From contig CP073744.1 of the NCBI GenBank assembly GCA_024397955.1, positions 2,508,501-2,572,500 of the forward strand: a stretch of 64,000 nucleotides of DNA, given 5' to 3'. Both the position numbers and the translations under genes were made by a program. Shown in pieces: positions 583 to 13,171 of the stretch; within the stretch, counting starts at the first letter, position 1, and each line of letters begins with the position of its first letter. Under the pieces are notes generated by a model. It had not been told where the DNA came from, ran no database searches, and saw only the letters and a list, made by a program, of their open reading frames with translations. The DNA is from a bacterium SCSIO 12696. GTDB taxonomy: Bacteria; Pseudomonadota; Gammaproteobacteria; Pseudomonadales; Porticoccaceae.

Positions 583-1356
583 TTACTCCCCTTTTGCGAA
601 CTGTTTGAGTTGCGCCAATTCGCTGTGGTATGACTGCAATTGCTTTTGCGCACGCTTATAAGTGCCTTTGAGATGACCTTTTAGATGTTGGAACAGGTGG
701 CGGTTATCGATGCCTTTCAAATGGCAGAAGATGGCCAGGGCTACCAGCGATTCCCGCTCAGACAATACCGCATTGCGATTGGCCGCCGGGTCGTAACAGC
801 TGCCGCAACCGGTGCGAAATTGGTATGCGGAGTTGGTGATTAACAAGCCAAAGCCCATAAAAATAGCCACTACTTCCGTCGCCTGTGACAAGTAATCATT
901 GCCTCCTGGGGGTGTTTGCCCGGATTGGTACACCAGGTGTTGTGCCACCAAATGACTAAAACTGGCTGCCATGGCCTGAGGCTGTTTGGTTTGCTGGGGC
1001 TGATAGCTGATGATTAACTGGGGGCTGTGTGGGTCACTGGCAGCCTGAATATCACCGCGCTGATGAGTATCCAGCGATAGCCGCGGCACCGGTGCAGGAA
1101 TAAAATTTTCCGGGCTGACCAAAATAAACGGCCAGTGGTTGAGCCCGGCGTACTGAGTCACCCGGCTAAAAATGGCCTGGGCCATACCATGGACGCTGTT
1201 GACCCGATCCGGGAAAAAATCATTGCTGGGCAGCACCAGCGGACACTCCTGAAAGGCCTGTCGGTCGTACTCACTGATGGCCCAGTGAAAGCAATCCAAC
1301 AGCCAGCTAACACTGTCGTCGTCGATAACTGGTTTGGGTTTGAGCAGTGACAACAT
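583..1356 (-). CDS. Uncharacterised 257-residue protein, possibly a degenerate zincin-like fold
   Basis: I do not recognise a named family. The start ATG shares one base with the TGA of the upstream DAHP synthase (TGATG), so translation is probably coupled. The stop lies 6 bp before the trmY start. The protein is soluble, with no signal peptide or membrane segment. The N-terminal part has WLLDCFHWAISEY (about 18-30) and PLVLPSNDFFP (39-49). The middle has SHLVAQHLV (134-142) followed by ATEVVAIFMGFGLLITNS (159-176), which looks like the helix pair of metallopeptidase-like proteins where HExxH is followed by a Thr-Asp/Glu-rich helix. Here the HExxH position reads LVAQH, so the metal site would be broken. 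There is a GCGSC cluster at 183-187. The C-terminal third is basic and helical with a KGHLKGTYKRAQKQL stretch. A non-catalytic helper of the tRNA methyltransferase is possible but unsupported. Confidence 0.75.
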   Translation of the reverse strand: MLSLLKPKPVIDDDSVSWLLDCFHWAISEYDRQAFQECPLVLPSNDFFPDRVNSVHGMAQAIFSRVTQYAGLNHWPFILVSPENFIPAPVPRLSLDTHQRGDIQAASDPHSPQLIISYQPQQTKQPQAMAASFSHLVAQHLVYQSGQTPPGGNDYLSQATEVVAIFMGFGLLITNSAYQFRTGCGSCYDPAANRNAVLSERESLVALAIFCHLKGIDNRHLFQHLKGHLKGTYKRAQKQLQSYHSELAQLKQFAKGE

Positions 1357-2402
1357 CAGCGCACCGTTGCCGCCAGTCGTTCCAGTACGGGCAGGGTATT
1401 TGCCAATGACAGGCAGCCGTCAGTAATACTCTGCCCATACGTTAAGGGTTCACCGGTCACTTGTTTTTGGTTGCCGCCCACCAGATGGCTCTCCAGCATT
1501 AACCCGCGAATGGCGGTTTCTCCGGCTTCCCTTTGCTGGGCGATATCTTCTGCCACCAGTGGCTGGTTTTCCGGATTTTTAAGGCTGTTGCCATGGCTGC
1601 AATCAATAATCAGGTTGCTGGTAATGCCGCCTTTTTCCAATACGGCTTTGGCGGTGTTTACGGATTCGGCGTTGTAATTCGGCCCGCTAACATTGCCGCC
1701 GCGCAGAATCAGATAACAGTGCGGGTTGCCGCTGGTTTCCAGAATGGCGGGGGAGCCCTCTTTGGTGAGTGACGGAAACCAGTGTGAGTGGCTGGCAGAA
1801 CGGATGGCGTCTACCGCTACTTGCATGTCGCCGTCGGTGCGGTTTTTAAATCCTACTGGCATGGACAAGCCAGAGGCCAGTTCCCGGTGTATCTGGCTCT
1901 CCACCGTACGCGCGCCGATGGCGGCAAAGCTCACCAGGTCGGCGTAGTATTGGCCAATCGTCGTATCCAGAAATTCCGAAGCAGCGGGCAAGCCCAACTC
2001 CGCCACATCCAGCAGCAGCTGGCGGGCGATTTTCAAGCCTTTGTTGATTTGGAAGCTGCCGTCCAGGTCCGGGTCATTAATCAGCCCTTTCCAGCCCACC
2101 ACGGTACGGGGCTTTTCAAAATACACCCGCAACACAATAAATAACTTGTCGCTGTACTTTTCAGAGGCTTCCTTGAGCTGGCGGGCGTAGTCCATGGCCG
2201 CTGCCGGGTCGTGAATGGAGCAGGGGCCAACCATCACCAGCAGACGTTTATCTTTACCGCTCAGAATATTTTCGATGGTAGTGCGCGATTGGGCAATCAA
2301 CTGGGCGCTACTGGCGGGCACCGGCAGTTCACTACTGAGAATGGCCGGCGCCAACAGCGGCTGGCTGTGACGAATACGCAGGTCGTCCGTACGGCTGGAC
2401 AT
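1356..2402 (-). CDS. 3-deoxy-7-phosphoheptulonate (DAHP) synthase, class I
   Basis: Condenses phosphoenolpyruvate and erythrose 4-phosphate to DAHP, the first step of the shikimate pathway, in the cytoplasm. Recognisable family blocks include VMVGPCSIHDP near the N-terminus (PEP/metal-binding Cys), RVYFEKPRTVVGWKGLINDP, ASEFLD, GARTVESQIHRELASGLSMPVGFKN, HCYLILRGG and IDCSHGNS (metal-binding His). Starting at the ATG at 2400-2402 gives 348 residues, close to the usual 350. This start is preferred because an AAGGAAA ribosome-binding site lies just upstream of it. An in-frame ATG at 2426 would place that site inside the coding region. The protein belongs to the AroF/AroG/AroH type, but which aromatic amino acid inhibits it cannot be read from sequence by eye, so no symbol is given. 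It overlaps the next gene by one base. Confidence 0.93.
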   Translation of the reverse strand: MSSRTDDLRIRHSQPLLAPAILSSELPVPASSAQLIAQSRTTIENILSGKDKRLLVMVGPCSIHDPAAAMDYARQLKEASEKYSDKLFIVLRVYFEKPRTVVGWKGLINDPDLDGSFQINKGLKIARQLLLDVAELGLPAASEFLDTTIGQYYADLVSFAAIGARTVESQIHRELASGLSMPVGFKNRTDGDMQVAVDAIRSASHSHWFPSLTKEGSPAILETSGNPHCYLILRGGNVSGPNYNAESVNTAKAVLEKGGITSNLIIDCSHGNSLKNPENQPLVAEDIAQQREAGETAIRGLMLESHLVGGNQKQVTGEPLTYGQSITDGCLSLANTLPVLERLAATVR

Positions 2403-2548
2403 AAGAGTTTCCTTCAACAAAGACAACGGCGACGGATTGTACCATCGCCGGCTGAGGGTTGGTGGCAGTGCTTTGTTTCGCTTTGTTATAGCTGATAAAG
2501 TGGCCGAATTAATGGGTACTTAGACAACAATAATTAGAGGGTTTTGCG

Positions 2549-3946
2549 ATGGCGGCGGTTGCAGGGCAACACGAAAACTGGTCATCCCGTTTTGGTTTCT
2601 TGATGGCGTCGGTGGGCTTCGCCGTTGGCCTGGGTAATATCTGGCGCTTTCCTTATATGACCGGTGAAAATGGCGGCGCCGCTTTTGTACTGGTGTATTT
2701 GGTTTGCGCTTTTGCCATTGGCGTACCGATCTTGATGGCGGAAGTGATGATCGGTCGACGTGGCAAGCTGTCGCCGCCGGCTTCAATGGCGGCGGTTGCC
2801 GAGCAGGAAGGCACCAGCAAGGTGTGGGGTGCCGCCGGTGGTATGAACCTGCTTACCGCTCTGACCATCCAGGTGTTTTATTGTGTGATTGCCGGCTGGG
2901 TGCTGAGTTATTTCTGGAAAGCCCTGAATACCGGTTTTGTGGGCATAGATGCCTCTGTTGCCGAATCGACCTTTAATGCCACGGTGCAGGACGTGCCGGG
3001 TATGTTGTTGTGGACGGCCATTGCCCTTGGGGTCACCGGGTTTATTATTTACCGGGGTGTACAGGATGGTATTGAGAAAGCCGTCAAGGTGATGATGCCC
3101 ACCCTGTTCCTGCTGTTGGTGGTGCTGGTGATTTACCACATGTTTGCCGGTGGTTTTCCCGAAGCGGTGGATTACCTGTTTAGCGCGGACTTCAGCAAGA
3201 TTACCGGAGCGGTGTGGCTGGCGGCCATCGGTCAGGCGTTTTTCTCCGTAGGCGTGGGCATGGCCGGGATGATGACCTTTGGCGCTTATCTGCCCAAATC
3301 CATTTCTATCAGTAAGTCGGTCTTTATTATTGTTTTGGCCGATACCTTTGTTGCGCTGCTCGCCGGCTTTGCGATCTTCCCCGCCGTATTCGCCAATGGG
3401 CTTGATCCTCAGAGTGGCCCTGGTCTGATATTTAAAACTCTACCGGTGGCGTTCTCCCAAATGCCCGGCGGCTACGGGGTGAGCATTGTCTTTTTTATGT
3501 TGTTGTCGGTGGCTGCTATTACCTCCATGGTGGGTTTGTTGGAGCCGTTGATTTCCTGGGCGGAAGAGCGCAAAAATACCAGCCGCCAGAAAAGCGCGGT
3601 GATTATTACCCTGATTACTGCCGCTATTAGTGTGCTGTCTATTTTGGCGTTTAGTGGCAAAATGACTTGGACGCTTTCAGATATTTTTGCTATCAAACCA
3701 GAGGATCCAGGCTCGTTCTTATATCTTACATTTGGCGATCTGATGGATGCGTTCTCCAGCCGTTTGTTGTTGCCATTAGGTGGATTGTTTATCGCTATCT
3801 TTGCCGGTTGGTTTATTAGCCGCAAGTCCAGTTTCGAAGAACTGGATATTCATAATCCTTTGGTCTATCAGGCCTGGCGTTTCTTTATCCGTTTTGTGGC
3901 GCCAGTGGCGGTGCTGATTATTTTGTTTAGAGGCATCACGGAATAA
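2549..3946 (+). CDS. Sodium-dependent transporter of the SNF/NSS family
   Basis: A 465-residue inner-membrane protein of the neurotransmitter:sodium symporter family (LeuT-like fold), which moves amino acids or related amines with Na+. The hallmark first helix reads GFAVGLGNIWRFPY (about 23-36), carrying the unwound Na+/substrate site, followed by GENGGAAFVLVYL. About eleven hydrophobic segments follow, ending in VAPVAVLIILFRGITE. This length and an apparent odd number of helices are typical of bacterial SNF proteins. The substrate cannot be predicted. An AGAGG sequence lies upstream of the ATG. The gene is divergent from the DAHP synthase, with 146 bp between the starts, and ends at a clear intrinsic terminator, so it is probably a single-gene unit. 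Confidence 0.9.
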   Translation: MAAVAGQHENWSSRFGFLMASVGFAVGLGNIWRFPYMTGENGGAAFVLVYLVCAFAIGVPILMAEVMIGRRGKLSPPASMAAVAEQEGTSKVWGAAGGMNLLTALTIQVFYCVIAGWVLSYFWKALNTGFVGIDASVAESTFNATVQDVPGMLLWTAIALGVTGFIIYRGVQDGIEKAVKVMMPTLFLLLVVLVIYHMFAGGFPEAVDYLFSADFSKITGAVWLAAIGQAFFSVGVGMAGMMTFGAYLPKSISISKSVFIIVLADTFVALLAGFAIFPAVFANGLDPQSGPGLIFKTLPVAFSQMPGGYGVSIVFFMLLSVAAITSMVGLLEPLISWAEERKNTSRQKSAVIITLITAAISVLSILAFSGKMTWTLSDIFAIKPEDPGSFLYLTFGDLMDAFSSRLLLPLGGLFIAIFAGWFISRKSSFEELDIHNPLVYQAWRFFIRFVAPVAVLIILFRGITE

Positions 3947-3989
3947 AGGTAGCGCTTAATTCCTCCGATTGAGTGCCGCCTGTAGTGAC

Positions 3990-4022
3990 AACTGGCATCT
4001 GTTAGCAGATGCCAGTTTTTAT
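3990..4022 (+). terminator. Rho-independent terminator after the SNF transporter
   Basis: A perfect 12-bp stem (AACTGGCATCTG at 3990-4001 with its complement at 4006-4017) encloses a TTAG loop. It is followed directly by TTTTATT on the plus strand. It lies 43 bp after the transporter stop and separates it from the oppositely oriented kinase gene. Confidence 0.9.
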
Positions 4023-4050
4023 TGGATGGCCTGACACATCAAATCATCAA

Positions 4051-5298
4051 TTACGAACCAAGGTGTGCCTCCGTGATCGGCAGTTTTATAGTAAAAGTGG
4101 TGCCTTTGCCAATGGCGCTGTTCACCTCAATAGAACCATGATGTTTGCCCACAATAATTGAGTGGGCAATGGCCAAGCCTTGGCCTGTTCCTTTGCCCAC
4201 ACCCTTGGTGGTAAAAAAGGGCTCAAAGATTTTGTGTTGAATGTCACTGGGAATGCCCGGCCCAGTGTCTGCTATACGGATCAATACCTTGTCGCTCTCG
4301 CTACGAGTGGTGGTGATGGTGATGCGATCTTCACAATTTTCCATGCCTTCACTTTTCCCGGAAATCGCCTGCATAGCGTTAAGGATGATATTGATCCAAA
4401 CCTGATTCAACTCTGCTGGAAAGCCCAATACTTTAGGGAGTTTGCTATCCAGGTCTGTCTCAATATCAATGCTGTCTTTGCACTCATTGCGCACGACTAT
4501 CAGCGTATTTTCTATGGCGCAATTAATATCTACGGGCTGCTGGTTATTGTTGCCTGGGTGGGAAAAGCCTTTCATGGCAGAAACTATCTCAGCAATGGCT
4601 TTCATGCCGCCGCACGATTGCTGCAGAGAATCGGGTATCTCTTCGGCCAAAAATTCCATGTCGGCCTCTTCCAGCAGTTGGTTGAATTTTGAAGCCAGAG
4701 CTTCGGGCGCGCTTTGTAGCAGTGCTTGAAACTGTTGCAACAGTTCCATTAGTTCACTGAAAGAACGTTCCAGGAACTCCAGGTTGTTGTGCACAAATTG
4801 CACAGGCGTATTGATTTCATGGGCGATGCCAGCTGCCAGCTGACCGATAGCCTCCAGTTTTTGCGCCTGCAACAGTTGTTGCTGCAATTGTGCTTTTTCT
4901 TCAATGTCGCGGAATACCACCACTGCGCCAATTTGCTCTCCACGGCTGGACATAACTGGAGCGCCACTGACCTCAAGAAGGATCGAGTGGGTTGCTCCTC
5001 CAGGCTTTTGGATACACATAGTGATGTTATGGGTTGTTTCACCACCTATGGCGCGAGCCAGTGGCAGTTCTTCCGGTGGGAATGGTGTTGTGCGGTCGGT
5101 TTTGAATATGCCGTATGTATCGCTCCAGCTGTCTGGGCCACCGGAAGAAGCGCCAACTCCAAGGATCCTTTCTGCAGCCTTGTTGAAGTGTGTGAAATGA
5201 CCATCCATATCACAGACTACAAATCCGTCGTTAAGGCTCTCAATAATGGCTAACAGAGTGTCTTTGTCTCCTGGCATTCCAGGATGTTGATATGACAT
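4051..5298 (-). CDS. PAS-domain soluble histidine kinase
   Basis: A 415-residue kinase with no membrane segment. An N-terminal PAS domain (about 13-130) contains IIESLNDGFVVCDMDGHFTHFN and ends in VVVFRDIEEK. The dimerisation/phosphoacceptor box is IGQLAAGIAHEINTPVQF with the acceptor His at 160. The C-terminal ATPase domain shows an N box (NQVWINIILNAMQAI, 298-312), a G1 box DTGPGIP (344-350) and a G2 box GKGTGQGLAIAHS (368-380). The kinase core closely resembles that of the kinase at 6444-8675, sharing EADMEFLAEEIP, an MK.(F/Y)SHPG block and the HEINTP.QF..(N/D)NL.FL box. The two look like a duplicated pair. It is transcribed away from the peroxidase operon, from a shared 189-bp intergenic region. 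No receiver is attached; the regulators at 8692-11002 are the likeliest partners by position. Confidence 0.92.
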   Translation of the reverse strand: MSYQHPGMPGDKDTLLAIIESLNDGFVVCDMDGHFTHFNKAAERILGVGASSGGPDSWSDTYGIFKTDRTTPFPPEELPLARAIGGETTHNITMCIQKPGGATHSILLEVSGAPVMSSRGEQIGAVVVFRDIEEKAQLQQQLLQAQKLEAIGQLAAGIAHEINTPVQFVHNNLEFLERSFSELMELLQQFQALLQSAPEALASKFNQLLEEADMEFLAEEIPDSLQQSCGGMKAIAEIVSAMKGFSHPGNNNQQPVDINCAIENTLIVVRNECKDSIDIETDLDSKLPKVLGFPAELNQVWINIILNAMQAISGKSEGMENCEDRITITTTRSESDKVLIRIADTGPGIPSDIQHKIFEPFFTTKGVGKGTGQGLAIAHSIIVGKHHGSIEVNSAIGKGTTFTIKLPITEAHLGS

Positions 5299-5339
5299 TG
5301 CAGTGCCTTTGATTATTTAGTGGAGGCTATTCGAGAAAG

Positions 5340-5366
5340 AATAACCATGAAAAACTAAAGGTTATT
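5340..5366. promoter_or_regulatory. Inverted repeat in the divergent kinase/peroxidase promoter region
   Basis: AATAACC at 5340-5346 and its perfect complement GGTTATT at 5360-5366 are separated by 13 bp. They lie in an AT-rich intergenic stretch between the divergent kinase (start 5298) and peroxidase (start 5488). The size and position suit a dimeric regulator site, but a 7-bp inverted repeat in AT-rich DNA can arise by chance. No convincing -35/-10 pair could be assigned. Confidence 0.3.
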
Positions 5367-5487
5367 GATTAGGTTGCCGATGTAGAGACAGTTGTAAAAA
5401 AAATAATACAAATAGAGTCTGCTCTTAACTAAGACCACGAAATCGTAAGGCAATCACCGGCAGTTTGCTACACAAAGGAGAGTGGTA

Positions 5488-6447
5488 ATGAAACGTTTGG
5501 TGTGTTGTGGAAAAAAGTCCCTGTATATCGGTCTTTCCTTCCTGTTCGTACCTCTTTCTATCAGTGAGCCTATTACGCCAATATTGACCCCTCACGACTT
5601 GGATGAAGGCGCAGTTCAGCTTGGTAAGCGTTTGTTCCACAGTGTAGAGCTGTCCGGTGACAACAGCGTTTCCTGTGCTTCCTGTCACAAGGTTGATGGT
5701 GGTGGTGATGATGATCTGCGCTTTTCAATTGGTGTGGGTGGTCAAATTGGGCCAATCAATGCTCCTACCGTACTCAATAGTAGCCTTAATGCATTTCAAT
5801 TTTGGGATGGTCGGGCAGAAACGCTAGAGCAACAGGCAGAAGGCCCTATACACAACCCTTTGGAAATGAACAGCTCATGGCAAGAGGTGATCCAGAAATT
5901 GTCGGTGAACCGGGATTGGGTGGAAGAGTTTCGGGATATCTACCCAGACGGTATAACGGCGACAAACATCGCCCGTGCCATAGCATCGTATGAAAAAGCT
6001 TTAGTGACACCAGGTTCTCCCTTTGATCGCTACTTGCTGGGAGAAGAGTCGGCTATCACCGATCGTGCCAAAGAGGGTTATCGCCTGTTTATACAAATGG
6101 GGTGTGTATCCTGTCATCAAGGCCAAAATGTTGGAGGCAATATGTTTCAGCAGTTCGGCATTATGGGGGACTATTTTCGCGATAGGGGTGCTGTTACAGA
6201 AGCGGATTACGGGCGTTTCAATGTGACAGGAAAAGAGAGTGATCGATTTAAATTTAAAGTGCCAGGGCTGCGCAATGTGGCGAAAACAGCGCCTTACTTT
6301 CACGATGGCAGCGTGGAAACGTTAGCAGAAGCTATACGGACTATGGCTCGGTATCAATTAGGGCGAGGCATAAGCGATAGTCAAGTGCAGGCGATTGAGG
6401 CTTTTTTAAGGTCACTCTCTGGTGAAGTCAGGGAGGACTTACAATGA
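5488..6447 (+). CDS. Di-haem cytochrome c peroxidase (CcpA/MauG superfamily)
   Basis: A periplasmic di-haem c-type peroxidase that would reduce hydrogen peroxide with electrons from small c-type cytochromes. The 319-residue precursor starts at the ATG at 5488, 7 nt after AAGGAG; a GTG at 5482 is poorly placed. A hydrophobic signal region covers about 9-26. Two CxxCH haem sites are visible: CASCH (63-67) and CVSCH (206-210). The family block NAPTVLNSS...FWDGRA lies at 91-110 and VPGLRNVAKTAPYFHDGS at 258-275. TMARYQLG at 285-292 carries Met286 at the position that ligates the high-potential haem in true peroxidases. That favours a peroxidase over a MauG-type oxygenase, which has Tyr there. Its stop overlaps the start of the downstream kinase by 4 bp (ATGA). 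Such coupling of a peroxidase to a sensor kinase is unusual. Confidence 0.92.
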   Translation: MKRLVCCGKKSLYIGLSFLFVPLSISEPITPILTPHDLDEGAVQLGKRLFHSVELSGDNSVSCASCHKVDGGGDDDLRFSIGVGGQIGPINAPTVLNSSLNAFQFWDGRAETLEQQAEGPIHNPLEMNSSWQEVIQKLSVNRDWVEEFRDIYPDGITATNIARAIASYEKALVTPGSPFDRYLLGEESAITDRAKEGYRLFIQMGCVSCHQGQNVGGNMFQQFGIMGDYFRDRGAVTEADYGRFNVTGKESDRFKFKVPGLRNVAKTAPYFHDGSVETLAEAIRTMARYQLGRGISDSQVQAIEAFLRSLSGEVREDLQ

Positions 6448-8675
6448 AAAAAACAGCTTCTCTTTCTGTGTATGCCAAGATGATTATTGGCTTCTTTTTT
6501 ATATTACTGGCGAGCTTTTCCCTTCTGAGCATCAATAAATACAGCGCCAGTTATGATCACCAGAAGAGTCTGGTCTCAGAGATCAGACTGAGATCGCAGG
6601 AACTTCACGCCAAACTATTGGAGGTTCGTGGTGGTTTTGTGGTGGATTACGATGGCTTGGTGGAAAAAACATCGACACTCAATCGGCTACTGTCTGCTCT
6701 GGCAAAGAAGGAGCAGCAGTACCAACAAGCGGAAGGTGAGGAGGGCCTTGCTTTTGGCAGTTGGTTGTTCGGAAAAGAAACAATAGATATTTCTTCTCAG
6801 GAATTGGAAGTATCTCTTATTAGCCGTATGCAGATTGTTGAAGAGTTTAAATCTAATTTTTCAGTATTCAGAAATTCTCAGCTTATCGTTTTTCAGCTCA
6901 TAGCTGATCTTCGTCAGATGTATGCGGACAACCAGGCGTTGAATGAAGATCTTGACGTATTGGAAGCGGATGCTTTGAAAGCTATTCACGCAATGGTTGA
7001 CGATGACCATGACGTGTTAAATGCTAGCCTTTCTACCATACGCGAGCGACACAGAAACTCCTTTGAAGATATTGATGAATTTTTGGGATTTATCATCGGC
7101 CATTTCAAAATTATTAATGGCAGGGAGTCTGTGATCAGCCAGATAGTCAGGGAGGAAGTATCATTATCCAGCCAGTTTGAGCAACAGCTAGACGTGTTCG
7201 AATACAAATTGGACAGTGAGTATAGGCAACATGATGAGCGCTCATCAATGTACCGATACAGTTTTGCTGTAGTGGCTTTGACCATTCTTTTTTATGGAAT
7301 ATTTCAGGCCAGAAATTCGAGTCGTTTAGCTAGCCAGCTTCTGGTGCAAAATGAAAATCTAGAAAGTATGGTCGAAGAACGTACAAAAAATTTGAAACTC
7401 GCTACAGATAATTTGCAGGCTGAAAAGAAAGAGCGGGAAAAAAATCTGGTTGAATTAAAGGAATCCAGAGAAAGATTGAACGTTATTATCAATAACTTGC
7501 ACGGTTGTGTTTATGAATACGATGTAGTGAATGATGCAGTGGCTTACATGAGCCGGGGAGCAGAAGAAATTTGGGGGTGCAGTTCAGGGAAAATTTCTAG
7601 TCAAGAAGATTTGAGGCGGCAGATCCATCCAGATGACCAGCAATCCACTTGCACCGCTTTTGATGACGGCGTTGCTGAGCATTCTCCATTTAATATGGAA
7701 TATAGAATTATAAGGTCACTGGAAGATGAGCGCTGGGTTAGGGAGGTCGGAGTGCCTATTGTTGAAGATGGTGCTGTTAAATCCGTCGTTTGCTTGGTGT
7801 CTGATATTCACGAATTTAAAAAGGCTGGAGAAGATAGGAAACGGATTCAGGAAGAGTTGAATCACGCTCAAAAGATGGAATCGGTTGGCCAGCTGGCCGC
7901 TGGTGTGGCTCACGAAATTAATACTCCGGCCCAGTTTATTTCCGACAATCTTGTATTTCTTCAGGAATCGGCAGGGGATTTGATAACCCTAATAAAAGAA
8001 ATGGAAGCTGAGGTTGGAAGATCCACTGAAGAGTCGACCAAGAAAGTAGTAGAAGATCTATTGGATGAGGCGGATATGGAATATCTCGCTGAGGAAATTC
8101 CACAAGCACTGTCTCAATCTGCAAGTGGTATGGAGCGAATAGCTACCATTGTTCGCGCCATGAAAGATTATTCTCACCCAGGTGAATCTTTGGAATTAGC
8201 CGATATTAATGGAGCACTGCAGAGCACTATTATTGTTTCCAAATCAGAGTGGAAATATTTTGCCAAACTGGAGACTGACTTCGATGATAATCTTCCATTG
8301 GTAGAATGTGTGGTGGGTGATGTTAATCAGGTAGTGCTTAACATGATTGTTAATGCTGCGCATGCCATTGTTGATAAATTTGATGACCCCGATGATTTAG
8401 GTGGGCTAATTACCGTTCGCACCAGAGGAAGTGGGGAACAGGTATCTATAGAAATTAGTGATAACGGTGCCGGTATGGCGGAGTCGGTCAAAAGTCGTAT
8501 TTTCGATCAATTTTTTACCACCAAAGAAGTGGGTAAGGGCACTGGTCAAGGTTTGAGTATTGCTTATCGACTGATTGTTGAGAATCACAACGGCAAGATA
8601 GAAGTAGATAGCGAGCCAGGCCAAGGTACTACTTTCCGTATTCTCTTGCCTGTATCACAACCGAAAACTGCGTAA
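6444..8675 (+). CDS. Membrane histidine kinase with helical (DAHL-like) sensor and PAS domain
   Basis: A 743-residue inner-membrane sensor. The first membrane helix is about 11-30. A long periplasmic helical region (about 31-268) has LHAKLLEVRGGFVVDYDGLV near its start, resembling the DAHL class of double-helical sensor domains. The second helix is about 271-287, then a coiled coil with SMVEERTKNLK (308-318), a PAS-3-like domain (about 342-460) and a kinase core. The acceptor His is 490 in GQLAAGVAHEINTPAQF, the N box is NQVVLNMIVNAAHAI (628-642), and the G boxes are DNGAGMA (673-679) and GKGTGQGLSIAYR (698-710). It begins inside the stop codon of the peroxidase gene and is followed 16 bp later by a REC-HDOD regulator. 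The periplasmic sensor therefore faces the same compartment as the peroxidase. The stimulus is unknown; a link to peroxide or redox state is inferred from context. Confidence 0.92.
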   Translation: MKKTASLSVYAKMIIGFFFILLASFSLLSINKYSASYDHQKSLVSEIRLRSQELHAKLLEVRGGFVVDYDGLVEKTSTLNRLLSALAKKEQQYQQAEGEEGLAFGSWLFGKETIDISSQELEVSLISRMQIVEEFKSNFSVFRNSQLIVFQLIADLRQMYADNQALNEDLDVLEADALKAIHAMVDDDHDVLNASLSTIRERHRNSFEDIDEFLGFIIGHFKIINGRESVISQIVREEVSLSSQFEQQLDVFEYKLDSEYRQHDERSSMYRYSFAVVALTILFYGIFQARNSSRLASQLLVQNENLESMVEERTKNLKLATDNLQAEKKEREKNLVELKESRERLNVIINNLHGCVYEYDVVNDAVAYMSRGAEEIWGCSSGKISSQEDLRRQIHPDDQQSTCTAFDDGVAEHSPFNMEYRIIRSLEDERWVREVGVPIVEDGAVKSVVCLVSDIHEFKKAGEDRKRIQEELNHAQKMESVGQLAAGVAHEINTPAQFISDNLVFLQESAGDLITLIKEMEAEVGRSTEESTKKVVEDLLDEADMEYLAEEIPQALSQSASGMERIATIVRAMKDYSHPGESLELADINGALQSTIIVSKSEWKYFAKLETDFDDNLPLVECVVGDVNQVVLNMIVNAAHAIVDKFDDPDDLGGLITVRTRGSGEQVSIEISDNGAGMAESVKSRIFDQFFTTKEVGKGTGQGLSIAYRLIVENHNGKIEVDSEPGQGTTFRILLPVSQPKTA

Positions 8676-8691
8676 TTAAAAAGGAAGTGCA

Positions 8692-9870
8692 ATGAAACGG
8701 ATTGCTTTTGTAGACGACGATAAAAATGTTTTGGATGGCTTGCGCAGAATGTTGCGTTGTAATCGCAAAGAATGGCAAATGAGTTTCTTTTTGTCTGGCG
8801 ATGAATTTCTGTCGTCATTGGATGATAATTCTTTCGATATCATCGTCAGTGACATGCGTATGCCTCATATGAATGGTGGGGAGTTACTTGCAAAAGTAAA
8901 AGAGTTGTCGCCTTCTACCTTGAGGATTGTGCTTTCGGGGTATGCGAATGAAGAGATGATTCTCGAAAGCCTGCACGCTACCCACCAGTTTATTTCCAAG
9001 CCTGCAGACAGTGACAGGATCACCAAGTCGATCAACCGCGCACTTCGTTTGCAGGAATCCTTGTGCGAGAGGGAATTAAAATCTCTAATGGGCTCCATTG
9101 GATCATTGCCGGCTTTGCCGGTGGTTTACGATGAGCTGATGCGAGAAACTTGTTCGGACGATTCTTCTTTGGAGCGTGTCGGAGACATCATATCCAGAGA
9201 TGTCGGCCTCTCCGCTAGCATACTAAAAATTGTCAACTCGGCATTTTTTGCGTTGGTAAGGCATATTGAATCGCCGAGCCAGGCAGCCTCCATACTTGGC
9301 ATGGACACTCTTAAAAACTTGGCATTGTCTACCAGTGTATTTTCCTGTTTTAGTTCGGGCCAAAGCGGAGTAGAGGAGATCGAGCGGCTCAATCGTGACA
9401 GTCAGCGAGTGGGCGTTTTGTGCGGGAAAATAGCCAAAGAAAGTAACTTGTCCGCCAGGGCGATCGATCATGGGCAAATTGCTGGGATGATGTGTAATCT
9501 GGGTGCGCTGATTGCCCTTGTGTATCCGTCGCTGATGGTCGGTTTGGGCGATGATGAATCCAGATTGCCGCATATTGGTAGCTATTTGTTGGGTATTTGG
9601 GCGATGCCATTTCCGGTCGTGGAAGCAGTGCGCTGGCATCAGTGCCCTGCAGACAGCCAGATAGAAGAAATGTCCCCCTTAGCTGTGCTGCACTTTTCTT
9701 GGGCTATGTTAACGGCTCATGGAGAAGGTGGAGAAGGTGTCGAAATTACACTTGAGAACGACAGATTAGATCTGGATTACCTGGGTGCCGTTGTGGGTGC
9801 GGAAACACTGCGCCAATGGGTACGCGTGACTGAAGAATTCTGTGATCAGGTAGATTGTAAAGATGACTGA
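8692..9870 (+). CDS. Response regulator with REC and HDOD domains
   Basis: A 392-residue cytoplasmic regulator. The REC domain (1-120) has the acidic cluster DDD at 8-10, phospho-acceptor Asp54 (IVSDMRMP), Ser82 in VLSG and Lys103 in the ISKP block. It is followed by an HDOD domain (about 130-330) with SLPALPVVYDELM, GDIISRDVGLSASILKIVNSAFF and ILGMDTLKNLALS. HDOD domains are HD-superfamily folds without the catalytic residues. They act in signalling, often alongside kinases and c-di-GMP proteins. A good AAGGAAG ribosome-binding site lies just upstream. The gene follows the kinase by 16 bp and overlaps the next regulator by 8 bp, so the three are probably co-transcribed. There is no DNA-binding domain, so output is likely protein-protein. 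Confidence 0.93.
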   Translation: MKRIAFVDDDKNVLDGLRRMLRCNRKEWQMSFFLSGDEFLSSLDDNSFDIIVSDMRMPHMNGGELLAKVKELSPSTLRIVLSGYANEEMILESLHATHQFISKPADSDRITKSINRALRLQESLCERELKSLMGSIGSLPALPVVYDELMRETCSDDSSLERVGDIISRDVGLSASILKIVNSAFFALVRHIESPSQAASILGMDTLKNLALSTSVFSCFSSGQSGVEEIERLNRDSQRVGVLCGKIAKESNLSARAIDHGQIAGMMCNLGALIALVYPSLMVGLGDDESRLPHIGSYLLGIWAMPFPVVEAVRWHQCPADSQIEEMSPLAVLHFSWAMLTAHGEGGEGVEITLENDRLDLDYLGAVVGAETLRQWVRVTEEFCDQVDCKDD

Positions 9871-11002
9871 AAAAATACTGTTTGTCGATGACGAGCCCAG
9901 CATTCTGCAGGCTTATCGGCGTACCCTAAGAAAGCAGTTCACAGTGGTGACTGCCGTTGGTGGCAAAGAGGCTCTCGACTTAATGGAGGCCGAGGGCCCT
10001 GCACCAGTCGTAGTGTCTGATATGAATATGCCAGAGATGAACGGCGTTGAATTCCTTTGCCAAGTAAAAGAACGCTATCCCGATACAGTACGGTTAATGC
10101 TTACTGGCAACGCCGATCAACAAACTGCGGTGTCGGCTATCAATACCAGCGATGTTTATCGGTTTTTGAACAAACCCTGCCCACCTGATCAAATGGCGCA
10201 AGCGATCAATGCGGCATTGGATCATTACAAACTGCTCAAGATGGAGCAGGAGCTTTTGGAGAATACGGTAAAGGGAAGTATCGATGCATTAGTGGAGATA
10301 CTATCCCTGGTAAGCCCGAAAATTTTTGGTCACGCCTCTGTTATCAGTGGTTATGTTGCCAAGTGCGCCAAAAAAATGGGTGTAGTATCAACCTGGGACC
10401 TGGAAGCGGCAGCATTGCTGGGGCAGGTGGGTAAGGTCACTTTGTCAGATACTGTGCTTGAGCGCGCGCTCAAAGGTTCACCTCTGAGTGAGGATGAGCA
10501 GCAGGTATATGATGGCTACCCAGAGGTAGGTGCCAAGCTGATTAATCACATTCCCCGTATGGAAGGAATTTCTCAGGCAATACGTTATCAGAACAGGGCC
10601 TACGATGGTTCGGGGCTGCCCAGCGATGGCGTTTCAGGAGAGCAAATACCTTTGGGAGCTCGCCTGCTCAAACCGGTAATGGATTTGGTATCCGGAGAAG
10701 CGCGGGGGCTGTCTGCTGAGGAGGCTTTTTCCAAAATTAAGGCCAACGGTCACTTGTATGATCCTCAGATATTGGCGGTGCTAGAACAGGTGGTCAGTGT
10801 CTCAACAGAGAAAGTGGTTAAAGAGATTAATGTCGCACAATTGGTGGAGGGAATGGTGGTTGCCAGCGACATTATTGCTTCTTCTGGCACGCTGTTGGTG
10901 GGCAAGGGGCAGGCAATTTCTGCATCCATGATTACTCGCTTGATAAACTTTTGCAGTAATGGATCAGCCCCGGGTAAGGTTGATGTGCTTGTGAGTAAAT
11001 AA
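9863..11002 (+). CDS. Response regulator with REC and degenerate HD-GYP domain
   Basis: A 379-residue protein with an intact REC domain (Asp53 in VVSDMNMP, Thr81 in MLTGNA, Lys104 in LNKP). The following domain aligns with HD-GYP c-di-GMP phosphodiesterases: HASVISGYVAKCAKKMG at 157-173, AALLGQVGKV at 183-192, YPEVGAKLINHIP at 219-231, DGSGLP at 248-253 and QIPLGARLL further on. The catalytic residues are gone. The HD pair is Gly187-Gln188, the HP of the next helix is YP, the HHE motif is Gln-Asn-Arg (243-245), and GYP is GLP. It is therefore predicted not to hydrolyse c-di-GMP and may bind it or a partner instead. A C-terminal segment (about 305-379) resembles the small extension found after some REC-HD-GYP proteins. 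It is last in the kinase/regulator run and overlaps the HDOD gene by 8 bp. Confidence 0.9.
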   Translation: MTEKILFVDDEPSILQAYRRTLRKQFTVVTAVGGKEALDLMEAEGPAPVVVSDMNMPEMNGVEFLCQVKERYPDTVRLMLTGNADQQTAVSAINTSDVYRFLNKPCPPDQMAQAINAALDHYKLLKMEQELLENTVKGSIDALVEILSLVSPKIFGHASVISGYVAKCAKKMGVVSTWDLEAAALLGQVGKVTLSDTVLERALKGSPLSEDEQQVYDGYPEVGAKLINHIPRMEGISQAIRYQNRAYDGSGLPSDGVSGEQIPLGARLLKPVMDLVSGEARGLSAEEAFSKIKANGHLYDPQILAVLEQVVSVSTEKVVKEINVAQLVEGMVVASDIIASSGTLLVGKGQAISASMITRLINFCSNGSAPGKVDVLVSK

Positions 11003-11163
11003 CCTTGGCTGATCAAAAACGGGGGGCACAGGTTTATCCTTGGTTGTTTGGTCTCTCCTCCTTTGAATAAAGAATTCTAGAAGCCAGTGTGAAGAAGTGT
11101 GAAAGCAGCAGCCATATTCAGGCTGCTGTGGCAGACTGCCGCCACTTTTTGTGGAGGTTTGCT

Positions 11164-11646
11164 GTGAAGAAATGGGTCTTATGGGTTGGTTTTTTGATGT
11201 CCTGGTCTTGCCTTACTCAGGCACAGTCCATTGACTTTTCCTTCCCTGATCGCGATGGCAAAACACACAACCTTTCGGACTTTCGCGGCAACTATGTGTT
11301 TGTGGATTTTTGGGCTTCCTGGTGCGTACCCTGTCTTGCACAAATTCCCCATTTGAAAAAATTTGAATCGGAAAATCACTACGATAATTTGGTGGTAGTT
11401 GGCATTTCTCTGGACGATGATAAAGCTGACTGGATAGACGCGCTGAATAAAGAGCAACCGTTAGGCGTTCAGTTATTTAATGAGCAAGGTTTCGACGCAC
11501 AAATAATTGCAGCATTAAATGTTGTCGGCCTGCCCCGCTTTGCGCTGTTGGGGCCGAATGGCGAATTAGTCAATGGCGATATGCCTATGCCCGGTGATGA
11601 AGATTTTAAAAGTACAATTGAAGCCTACTTGAAAGCGACGAACTAA
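11164..11646 (+). CDS. TlpA/ResA-like periplasmic thioredoxin-fold protein
   Basis: A 160-residue exported thiol-disulphide protein. The start is taken as the GTG at 11164, 5 nt after a GGAGG; this yields a classic signal peptide (KKWVLWVGFLMSWSCLTQA, cleavage near residue 20). An ATG at 11089 in the same frame would add 25 residues without a secretory character. The mature part begins with a redoxin-type SIDFSFPDRDGKTHNLSDFRG, then the active site WASWCVPC with Cys54 and Cys57, and the cis-proline loop VVGLPRF later. Such proteins reduce apocytochrome or other periplasmic disulphides, or respond to oxidants. It lies 160 bp after the regulator genes and before a bidirectional terminator. It may belong functionally with the cytochrome c peroxidase, but it need not share its transcript. 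Confidence 0.88.
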   Translation: MKKWVLWVGFLMSWSCLTQAQSIDFSFPDRDGKTHNLSDFRGNYVFVDFWASWCVPCLAQIPHLKKFESENHYDNLVVVGISLDDDKADWIDALNKEQPLGVQLFNEQGFDAQIIAALNVVGLPRFALLGPNGELVNGDMPMPGDEDFKSTIEAYLKATN

Positions 11647-11667
11647 CGAGAAACGGTTTACATGATT

Positions 11668-11712
11668 AAAAAAGCCCGGAGATAAACAGCTTAAAATCTC
11701 CGGGCTTTTTTA
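11668..11712. terminator. Bidirectional rho-independent terminator between tlpA-like gene and gatB
   Basis: AAAAAGCCCGGAGAT (11668-11682) pairs with ATCTCCGGGCTTTTT (11696-11710) around a 13-nt loop. T-runs follow the stem on both strands, so it can end both the thioredoxin-gene transcript and the convergent gatCAB transcript. Confidence 0.93.
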
Positions 11713-11725
11713 ATGGCTGTGGCTA

Positions 11726-13171
11726 CTAAAGCAGTGCAGACAGTTTTTGCGCCAGTACCTGGTTTACCTGTTGCGGATTGGCCTGGCCTTTGGATGCTTT
11801 CATAATTTGGCCGACAAAATAGCCCATCATTTTGGGCCGTTTGGCTTCGTCCGCCTTAATGTAGTTTTCCACCTGCTGTGGCGAGTTGGCAATGACTTCA
11901 TCCACTAAGGCTTCGATAGCGCCAGAGTCGGAAACCTGTTTTAAGCCGTGCTTGTCGATAATGGCGTCCACATCGGTTTCGCCTTTCCATAGATGATCGA
12001 ATACTTGTCTGGCCATTTTATTGGACAAGGTGCCATCGGAAATGCGCGTCACCAATGCAGACAATTGTTCTGCTGCAATCGGGTTGTCCGAAAATTCTTT
12101 TTCTTCCGCATTCAGGCGTGCGGCCATCTCGCCCATCATCCAGTTGGCCACCAGTTTTGCATCGCTTTGTTGGGCGGCGCTTTCAAAGTAGTTGGCGGTG
12201 GTTGCGTCTGCTGACAACAGATTGGCGTCGTAGGCGGACAGGCCGTAGTCATTCTGGAAGCGGGCGCTGCGAGCGTCTGGCAGTTCTGGCAGAGTTTTAC
12301 GCAGGGCTTCGATGTAGTCGTCTTCAATCACCACTGGCAGCAGGTCGGGGCAGGGGAAGTACCGGTAATCGTTGGCTTCCTCTTTGCTGCGCATGGAGCG
12401 GGACACTTTGGTGGCGCCGTCATAAAGGCGGGTTTCCTGCACGACCTGGCCGCCGTCCTCAATCACATCGATTTGCCGTTGTACTTCCCGGGCAATGCAC
12501 TCTTCCATAAATTTGAATGAGTTGAGGTTTTTGGTTTCGGTGCGGGTGCCCAGGGGTTCGCCGGGGCGGCGCACGGAAATATTGACGTCAAAGCGCATGG
12601 AACCCTGCGACATATTGCCGTCGCAAATGCCCAGTGAGGTGACAATGCTGTGCAGCTTTTTGGCCATGGCCACCGCTTCGGCGGCGTTGGACATATCTGG
12701 TTCGGTAACTACTTCAATCAACGGTGTGCCGGCACGGTTTAAATCGATGCCAGACATTCCATGGAAGTCCTCGTGGAGTGATTTCCCTGCATCTTCTTCC
12801 AGATGTGCATGATGAATCCGCACATCTTTAGTGCTGCCGTCATCCAGTGCAATTTCCACACGGCCGGGGCCAACAATGGGTTTTTCCAGCTGCGTAGTTT
12901 GATAGCCTTTGGGCAAATCCGGGTAGAAGTAATTTTTGCGCTCAAACGCCGACTCTTTGCCAATTTCGGCGTCGATAGCCAAACCAAACATCACCGCGTA
13001 TTTAAAAGCGGCCTCGTTGGGTACTGGCAGGGTGCCGGGCATGGCCAGGTCAACGGCGCTGGCTTGGGTGTTTGGCTCGGCGCCAAACGCAGTGCTGCTG
13101 CCGGAAAAAATTTTGCTTTGGGTGGCCAGTTGCACGTGCACTTCCAGACCAATTACGGTTTCCCAACTCAT
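11726..13171 (-). CDS. gatB: Asp-tRNA(Asn)/Glu-tRNA(Gln) amidotransferase subunit B
   Basis: The tRNA-binding and kinase subunit of GatCAB, which phosphorylates and then amidates the misacylated Glu-tRNA(Gln) or Asp-tRNA(Asn). The N-terminus [15 protein letters not shown], the block [15 protein letters not shown] and [14 protein letters not shown] are typical. The C-terminal YqeY-like tail region ends in [19 protein letters not shown]. The start is the ATG at 13169-13171, which overlaps the gatA stop as ATGA; an in-frame ATG at 13204 would add 11 atypical residues. The result is 481 residues, the usual size. It is the last gene of gatC-gatA-gatB, ending 14 bp short of the shared terminator. 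Confidence 0.96.

Follow-up and report, generated by a model that had tools for sequence, protein, structure and literature searches.

We analysed a 64,000-nucleotide stretch of DNA from bacterium SCSIO 12696 (the window), whose genome (G000) is a single contig of 2.93 Mb, and within it a locus at positions 4051 to 11002 in which the gene for a di-haem cytochrome c peroxidase (CCP) homologue is coupled to that of a membrane histidine kinase with a periplasmic DAHL sensor domain. The peroxidase gene, ccp, lies on the plus strand at 5482 to 6447, counted from a GTG at 5482, with an ATG at 5488 behind AAAGGAG being the likelier start. Its product belongs to the CCP_MauG family (PF03150) and is predicted to be exported, as judged by eye from its N-terminus; we propose that it is a co-receptor. 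The kinase gene, K2, follows on the same strand at 6444 to 8675 and encodes a first transmembrane segment, the DAHL domain (about residues 33-270), a second transmembrane segment, and PAS, HisKA and HATPase_c domains, with the transmembrane segments placed by eye. PAS_3 and HATPase_c were over the Pfam cut-off, HisKA was just under it (24.0 bits, cut-off 26.9) and DAHL (PF19443), with 52.5 bits, exceeded its cut-off of 38. The original prediction for this locus, made from the sequence, held that the stop of ccp and the start of the membrane sensor kinase gene share an ATGA, and this overlap was confirmed together with all genes, domains and coordinates.

Two response regulator genes complete the operon, encoding a REC-HDOD protein (PF00072 and PF08668; 8692 to 9870, plus strand) and a REC-HD_5 protein (PF00072 and PF13487; 9863 to 11002, plus strand), and the second starts inside the first (9863 versus 9870). 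Divergent from the operon, on the minus strand at 4051 to 5298, is K1, encoding a soluble histidine kinase with PAS_4, HisKA and HATPase_c domains. The intergenic region between K1 and ccp (5299 to 5481) is 183 bases long, counted to the GTG start, and a promoter scan of positions 3940 to 11800 gave promoter-like matches not above those of shuffled sequence.

The window CCP scored 191.8 bits with PF03150 (cut-off 25.6), and its best match in the Protein Data Bank (PDB) was 9qdt. In di-haem peroxidases a Trp lies between the haems, a Gln and a Glu act at the peroxidatic haem and an axial Met binds the second haem; the window protein has all of these as well as both CxxCH motifs, the residue set of a di-haem peroxidase. 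It has Val where the peroxidase 1iqc has its distal-loop His, and a distal His ligand loop is a trait of CCPs that require reductive activation.

Comparison with other genomes revealed that conservation centres on the CCP-DAHL pair. A search of 398 genomes of the phylum with PF19443 gave 71 matches over the cut-off and 12 below it. A CCP gene lay directly upstream on the same strand for 61 of the 71, or 61 of the 69 with readable upstream sequence, comprising two in this genome, 30 of 30 loci and 29 of 39 further loci. The ten misses were two matches that start at a contig edge (L210 and L216) and eight with other genes upstream; the one match read of the 12 below the cut-off (L217) lacked a CCP. 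Outside this genome the 59 linked matches came from 11 families and 19 genera. Controls with other sensor domains, drawn from 120 genomes each and covering about 1.5 kb either side on both strands, showed a CCP near none of 30 CHASE4 loci and near one of 30 HBM loci, some of the latter being below the HBM cut-off. The positive control for the HBM search (18 of 18) was weak, the loci having originally been fetched with the same CCP. These counts indicate that the predicted link between a periplasmic peroxidase and a sensor domain is both recurrent and specific.

The HBM set also contained a separate case, L296 (G067), in which a CCP of another type, about 38% identical (1-1176), precedes an HBM-like chemoreceptor that has no DAHL (1258-3345) by 80 bases or more, perhaps a second, independent pairing of a peroxidase with a receptor.

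The pairing also occurs outside the phylum. An alignment of seven DAHL-linked CCPs, used to scan GTDB contigs, found at least 536 confirmed relatives, of which the best 80 were kept. A DAHL domain followed the CCP in all 80 of these, detected with our own profile as the next open reading frame (ORF) in 73 and inside a longer frame in three, and by frame translation in four, and the Pfam DAHL model at an E-value of 0.001 detected it in 40 of 40 and 40 of 40 of the downstream proteins. By the titles of their records, the best 80 were from Pseudomonadota (58), Cyanobacteriota (13), Myxococcota (two), one unplaced genome, and one each of Omnitrophota, Poribacteria, Acidobacteriota, Chloroflexota, Bdellovibrionota and Verrucomicrobiota, many being metagenome bins in which contamination is possible. 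Among the families listed, the outputs included HATPase_c (40), GGDEF (30), EAL (29), SpoIIE (two), Guanylate_cyc (one) and MCPsignal (two), a single protein potentially falling under several families. Free CCPs of other kinds exist outside the clade of the queries. Seven matches from a plasmid collection were examined; three had DAHL beside the CCP and four did not. On Gloeocapsa and Vitreoscilla plasmids the CCP gene and that of a "DAHL domain-containing protein" overlap by 4 bases, and in Pseudoalteromonas piscicida the CCP gene overlaps that of a DAHL-GGDEF-EAL protein; no DAHL was annotated or visible among the listed ORFs beside the CCP in Persicobacter, Paraburkholderia, E. coli and Vibrio.

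Together these collections comprised 157 loci (80, 30, 40 and seven picked by hand, the window included), and the pair was present in 146, leaving 134 distinct pairs after removal of 12 duplicates. A start codon placing the DAHL gene at a 4-base overlap was available in 107 of the 134, a count of pairs in which such a start exists, the script having chosen the start nearest the overlap. No fusion of CCP and DAHL in one reading frame was found among the 157 loci. For 44 pairs with kinase outputs, distances between CCPs followed those between DAHL domains (Spearman 0.34) more closely than those between the kinase cores of the same proteins (0.07), with a bootstrap range of 0.08 to 0.48 for the difference. 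Thus, the two genes remain tightly linked in distantly related bacteria and with many types of output.

The haem sites of the linked CCPs are conserved. In the 134 distinct proteins the Cys and His checked at the haem sites and the Trp were invariant, and the axial Met was present in 133, the Gln in 128 and the Glu in 118. The distal-loop His of 1iqc was found in none of 146 linked CCPs. By alignment, the catalytic Glu was lost with the haems kept in 16 of 134 (17 of 146), and an independent pattern missed Glu in 11 of 146; the possibility that none of the linked CCPs is catalytic was rejected, Glu being kept in 118. All 22 unlinked CCPs examined kept Glu, although in this mixed set the axial Met was present in seven, with a gap there in 15. 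A tree built from 1iqc, 20 unlinked CCPs and 39 of the 134 linked ones (60 in all) required three changes of the linked label, compared with a mean of 17.3 when the label was shuffled.

The genome carries a second linked CCP (G000:C1:293388-297298; L051 8389-12299), which is 42% identical to the first, overlaps the start of a gene encoding a DAHL-PAS-GGDEF-EAL protein and lacks the catalytic Glu; the two were not sisters in the tree. A congener (G002) likewise has a second CCP overlapping a DAHL-PAS-GGDEF-EAL protein. At another locus, L215 (G064), the CCP upstream of the DAHL gene is 38% identical to the queries and sits on a long branch among free CCPs, possibly an independent recruitment.

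The DAHL domains that accompany a CCP share a set of polar residues. In the 134 distinct CCP-linked domains an Asp was invariant (D70 of K2, which with Y69 is encoded at 6648 to 6653), Tyr or Phe at the position of Y69 was present in 129, Asn in 130 (N144; codon at 6873 to 6875) and His in 125 (H220; codon at 7101 to 7103), all three stretches being on the plus strand. Among 11 DAHL domains without a detected CCP, two of them at contig edges and one below the cut-off, the corresponding counts were Asp four, Tyr or Phe one, Asn four and His two, and several hydrophobic columns dropped less than Asp, Asn and His. The conserved polar residues therefore largely track the presence of a CCP. Eight DAHL-like proteins without an upstream CCP (L187, L203-L206, L208, L212 and L214), mostly lacking the full set, are candidate peroxidase-independent DAHL domains.

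An AlphaFold2 model of K2 residues 1-315, built with 71 sequences, was composed entirely of helices (mean predicted local distance difference test score 91.4, predicted template modelling score 0.81). Comparison of the DAHL model with the PDB using Foldseek placed periplasmic sensor domains near the top of the list, alongside many unrelated long-helix proteins: the HBM domain of McpS (2yfb, E-value 0.031, probability 0.99), TorS (3i9y, E-value 0.074, probability 0.99, template modelling scores 0.40/0.50) and PilJ (7zjr, probability 0.89), with the TorS-TorT complex (3o1i) at rank 44. By sequence, only matches with E-values of 0.05 and 0.26, which are not credible, were found in the PDB.

The two kinases of the locus had been described as a duplicated pair with closely similar cores. 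The cores of K1 and K2 are indeed 47% identical and share HEINTPxQF, EADME(F/Y)LAEEIP and SHPG, and the genes are divergent as described, but the pair does not resemble a recent tandem copy. In a tree of 23 kinase cores, K1 and K2 fell into one clade (support 100/100) that also contained kinases of three other genomes (G010, G054 and G040), and K1 branched outside the other members rather than as the sister of K2, at a fork supported at only 85/75. This placement of K1 led us to reject a recent tandem duplication; judged by the tree, the two cores are members of an older kinase clade.

The description of the outputs as a REC-HDOD protein and a protein with a REC and a degenerate HD-GYP domain was borne out. 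Pfam gave no recognised DNA-binding domain in either protein. Active HD-GYP domains carry the motifs LHDIGK, H and HHE...GYP; in the alignment the REC-HD protein has LGQVGK, YDGY and YQNRAYDGSGLP at these positions, so that none of HD dyad, HHE block or GYP remains and "degenerate" is the right term. A phosphodiesterase output was accordingly rejected. The motifs are also lost in the counterparts from G002, G010 and G054 and from two Mariprofundus-type loci (L095 and L251), and are kept in G040, so that loss of the activity within this output family is probable.

The gene order is not confined to this genome. The congener G002 has K1, ccp, K2, REC-HDOD and REC-HD in identical order, with 65-90% identity depending on the part. 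Among the 80 GTDB loci, whose flanks were at most 6 kb and often ended by contig edges, the order ccp, DAHL kinase, REC-HDOD and REC-HD occurred in two (L095 and L117, both Mariprofundus sp.), and it occurred in one of 20 further loci with longer flanks (L251, Mariprofundus-type). In L117, a Mariprofundus bin, the DAHL kinase spans two overlapping frames (6884-9296), either because the gene is broken or because the sequence contains an error. In L081 and L082 the DAHL kinase is followed by another kind of REC-HD protein, and in four Pseudomonas-type loci (L121, L135, L140 and L145) one lies near it on the opposite strand; L140 is from Pseudomonas thivervalensis DSM 13194, and Pfam detected both DAHL and HATPase_c in its receptor. 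A kinase with REC-HDOD and REC-HD also exists without ccp, in G010, in G054 with an MHYT sensor and in G040 with PAS and no DAHL found, which gives the output part the look of an older module to which a CCP-DAHL input was added. Peroxidase-free sets of this kind, with other sensors, lie at L046 8006-12350 and L045 6342-10642. The locus had been proposed to act as a sensing system; the part of this proposal that pairs a periplasmic peroxidase with a sensor stands as recurrent and specific, but what is conserved is the CCP-DAHL pair, which is joined to many outputs.

Beside the locus, a gene encoding a TlpA/ResA-like thioredoxin of the AhpC-TSA/thioredoxin families lies at 11089 to 11646 on the plus strand. 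A similar gene is found in the congener (L043 2836-3414) on the opposite side of the locus, and the thioredoxin, whose link to the system is uncertain, may have a loose functional connection to it.

DAHL receptors usually have a CCP gene directly in front of them, suggesting that the peroxidase is the signal-detecting part. We consider it probable that the exported CCP serves DAHL as a dedicated haem-bearing co-receptor in the periplasm, for peroxide or redox state. TorS senses trimethylamine N-oxide through a separate periplasmic protein, TorT, which is of the periplasmic-binding-protein kind. The CCP would dock on the helical DAHL domain as TorT does on TorS, and binding or turnover of hydrogen peroxide at its haems, or a redox state set by its electron donors, would alter the contact between the two and thereby switch the attached output. 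Here that output is K2, and we infer that K2 together with K1 would phosphorylate both REC-HDOD and the REC-degenerate-HD protein. Lacking any recognised DNA-binding domain and, in the case of REC-HD, an HD-GYP active site as well, these regulators would exert their effect through contacts with other proteins.

Several known systems resemble parts of this proposal. Like K2, TorS has a helical periplasmic sensor, of roughly similar fold as far as the weak Foldseek match goes, whereas the accessory protein here would be a di-haem CCP and the comparison on our side concerns genes and a predicted fold. McpS, the best Foldseek match of DAHL, shares a helical ligand-binding domain, but its structures have succinate or malate bound and 29 of the 30 HBM loci had no CCP nearby. 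The REC-HD protein is similar to NosR-family regulators, scoring 283.9 bits with NF053512, which is below the cut-off of 400. HnoD of Shewanella is a REC protein with a degenerate HD-GYP domain that binds another regulator; the partner encoded beside the REC-HD protein here is different, being REC-HDOD. HbpS is octameric and unrelated to CCP, and its partner SenS has a different sensor domain. As described in parts of two sources, the HbpS-SenS-SenR system of Streptomyces is like the present pair in combining a secreted redox-sensory protein with a membrane kinase, and it has links to haem and iron stress (PMC4991794, PMC3754957).

The closest parallel is in Campylobacter jejuni, which, according to passages of PMC3156733, has two CCP loci, one of them, docA, immediately preceding docB; the latter encodes Tlp10, a receptor identified as a DAHL protein in passages of PMC9796306. 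The order is that of the window, in which the genes overlap at ATGA, but the output of DocB is a chemoreceptor and that of K2 a kinase, the two being compared by description rather than by sequence. The same passages of PMC3156733 report that mutation of docA lowers colonisation, and those on DocA in the two papers make no claim that it is a receptor for DocB. Among the papers listed in literature searches, whose coverage of subscription journals was small, none described CCP and DAHL as a sensing unit of general occurrence.

Several observations weigh against a co-receptor role. Thirty of the 59 linked matches of the phylum set came from one family, and the 80 of 80 linkage is conditional on a scan that used patterns drawn from DAHL-linked CCPs and retained just the best 80. 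Eight DAHL matches over the cut-off, with upstream sequence present, lack a CCP. One CCP-free domain (L204) keeps Asp, Asn and His, indicating that these residues are not strictly tied to the peroxidase, and CCP-free DAHL domains are mostly weaker matches, so part of the loss of these residues is plain divergence. The second DAHL domain of this genome, in L051, has lost Asn and His while keeping Asp, although it is CCP-linked. No Foldseek match of the DAHL model to the PDB was below an E-value of 0.001, the sensor matches lying at 0.03-0.07. Most linked CCPs keep their peroxidase residues, leaving room for a plain enzyme role, and ligands of several classes, malate among them, are detected by Tlp10 according to passages of PMC9796306, which means that DAHL may bind small molecules alone.

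The last two observations are those expected if the CCP were an ordinary periplasmic peroxidase for detoxification in an operon with the sensor that controls it, and DAHL sensed a small molecule. The catalytic residues of the window CCP are likewise intact, and the other C. jejuni CCP, Cj0358, rises in vivo, for which peroxide removal was suggested in passages of PMC3156733. Nevertheless, the link is to one sensor domain and not to a type of regulator, the outputs ranging over kinases, cyclic di-GMP (c-di-GMP) enzymes, PP2C phosphatases, cyclases and chemoreceptors; 16 of the 134 pairs have a CCP with its haems but without the Glu; and, in the same passages, the C. jejuni CCPs made no contribution to hydrogen peroxide resistance. 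We regard plain detoxification as unlikely.

A variant of the co-receptor reading, rather than its opposite, is that the CCP reports the reduction state of periplasmic cytochromes or quinol instead of peroxide, with DAHL reading its oxidised or reduced conformation. The near-complete retention of haem ligands (axial Met in 133 of 134), the absence of the 1iqc distal-loop His from all 146 linked CCPs and the catalytic Glu being the more dispensable residue would all suit such a gauge, as would the names of several holders, which are those of microaerophiles or sulfur or iron oxidisers. However, the peroxidase Trp and Gln are kept (134 and 128 of 134), suggesting that hydrogen peroxide chemistry still matters, and a purely respiratory signal seems quite unlikely to us.

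It is also conceivable, and in our estimate highly improbable, that the CCP, similar to MauG or MbnH, oxidises a residue of DAHL such as Y69 or H220 and thereby sets or switches the receptor. The near-invariant Tyr or Phe, Asp, Asn and His of CCP-linked DAHL would suit a modified site, and losses of the CCP Glu and the DAHL His coincide (5 of 16 versus 4 of 118; Fisher p = 0.0012 with kinship ignored). One of the four is L091, a truncated fragment of 112 residues, and the paired loss, which comes from about three lineages, is suggestive. The NCBIfam models for MauG and MbnH do match the window CCP, but with scores far below their cut-offs (151.4 versus 443.85 and 180.3 versus 362.85, respectively), and the axial position of the second haem, Tyr in MauG, is Met in 133 of 134 linked CCPs. 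Finally, a chance cluster of unrelated genes, as might be suspected from the full order being confined to G000 and G002 among 58 relative genomes (own included; 18 stretches read), was rejected as extremely improbable because the order is kept in the congener, four of its genes recur in the three Mariprofundus-type loci and the CCP-DAHL pair is found in 134 distinct loci.

The locus itself combines parts that are already known; of more interest is the general CCP-DAHL pair, made up of a helical sensor domain known before and a di-haem peroxidase, a protein usually annotated as an enzyme. We see an even chance that the pairs form a receptor class with a haem peroxidase as its head, in which DAHL mainly reads the haem or redox state of its dedicated CCP, about nine phyla have the module mounted on chemoreceptors, cyclases, kinases, PP2C phosphatases or c-di-GMP enzymes, and some CCPs have given up catalysis and serve for sensing only. 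If CCP and DAHL act as co-receptor and reader, many genes annotated as cytochrome c peroxidase would be mis-assigned, possibly hundreds given the at least 536 relatives (of which the best 80 were read), and the signal of DAHL kinases, cyclases and chemoreceptors would become directly testable as periplasmic peroxide or redox state. Such a class would also explain why DocA is important to C. jejuni without a role in peroxide resistance.

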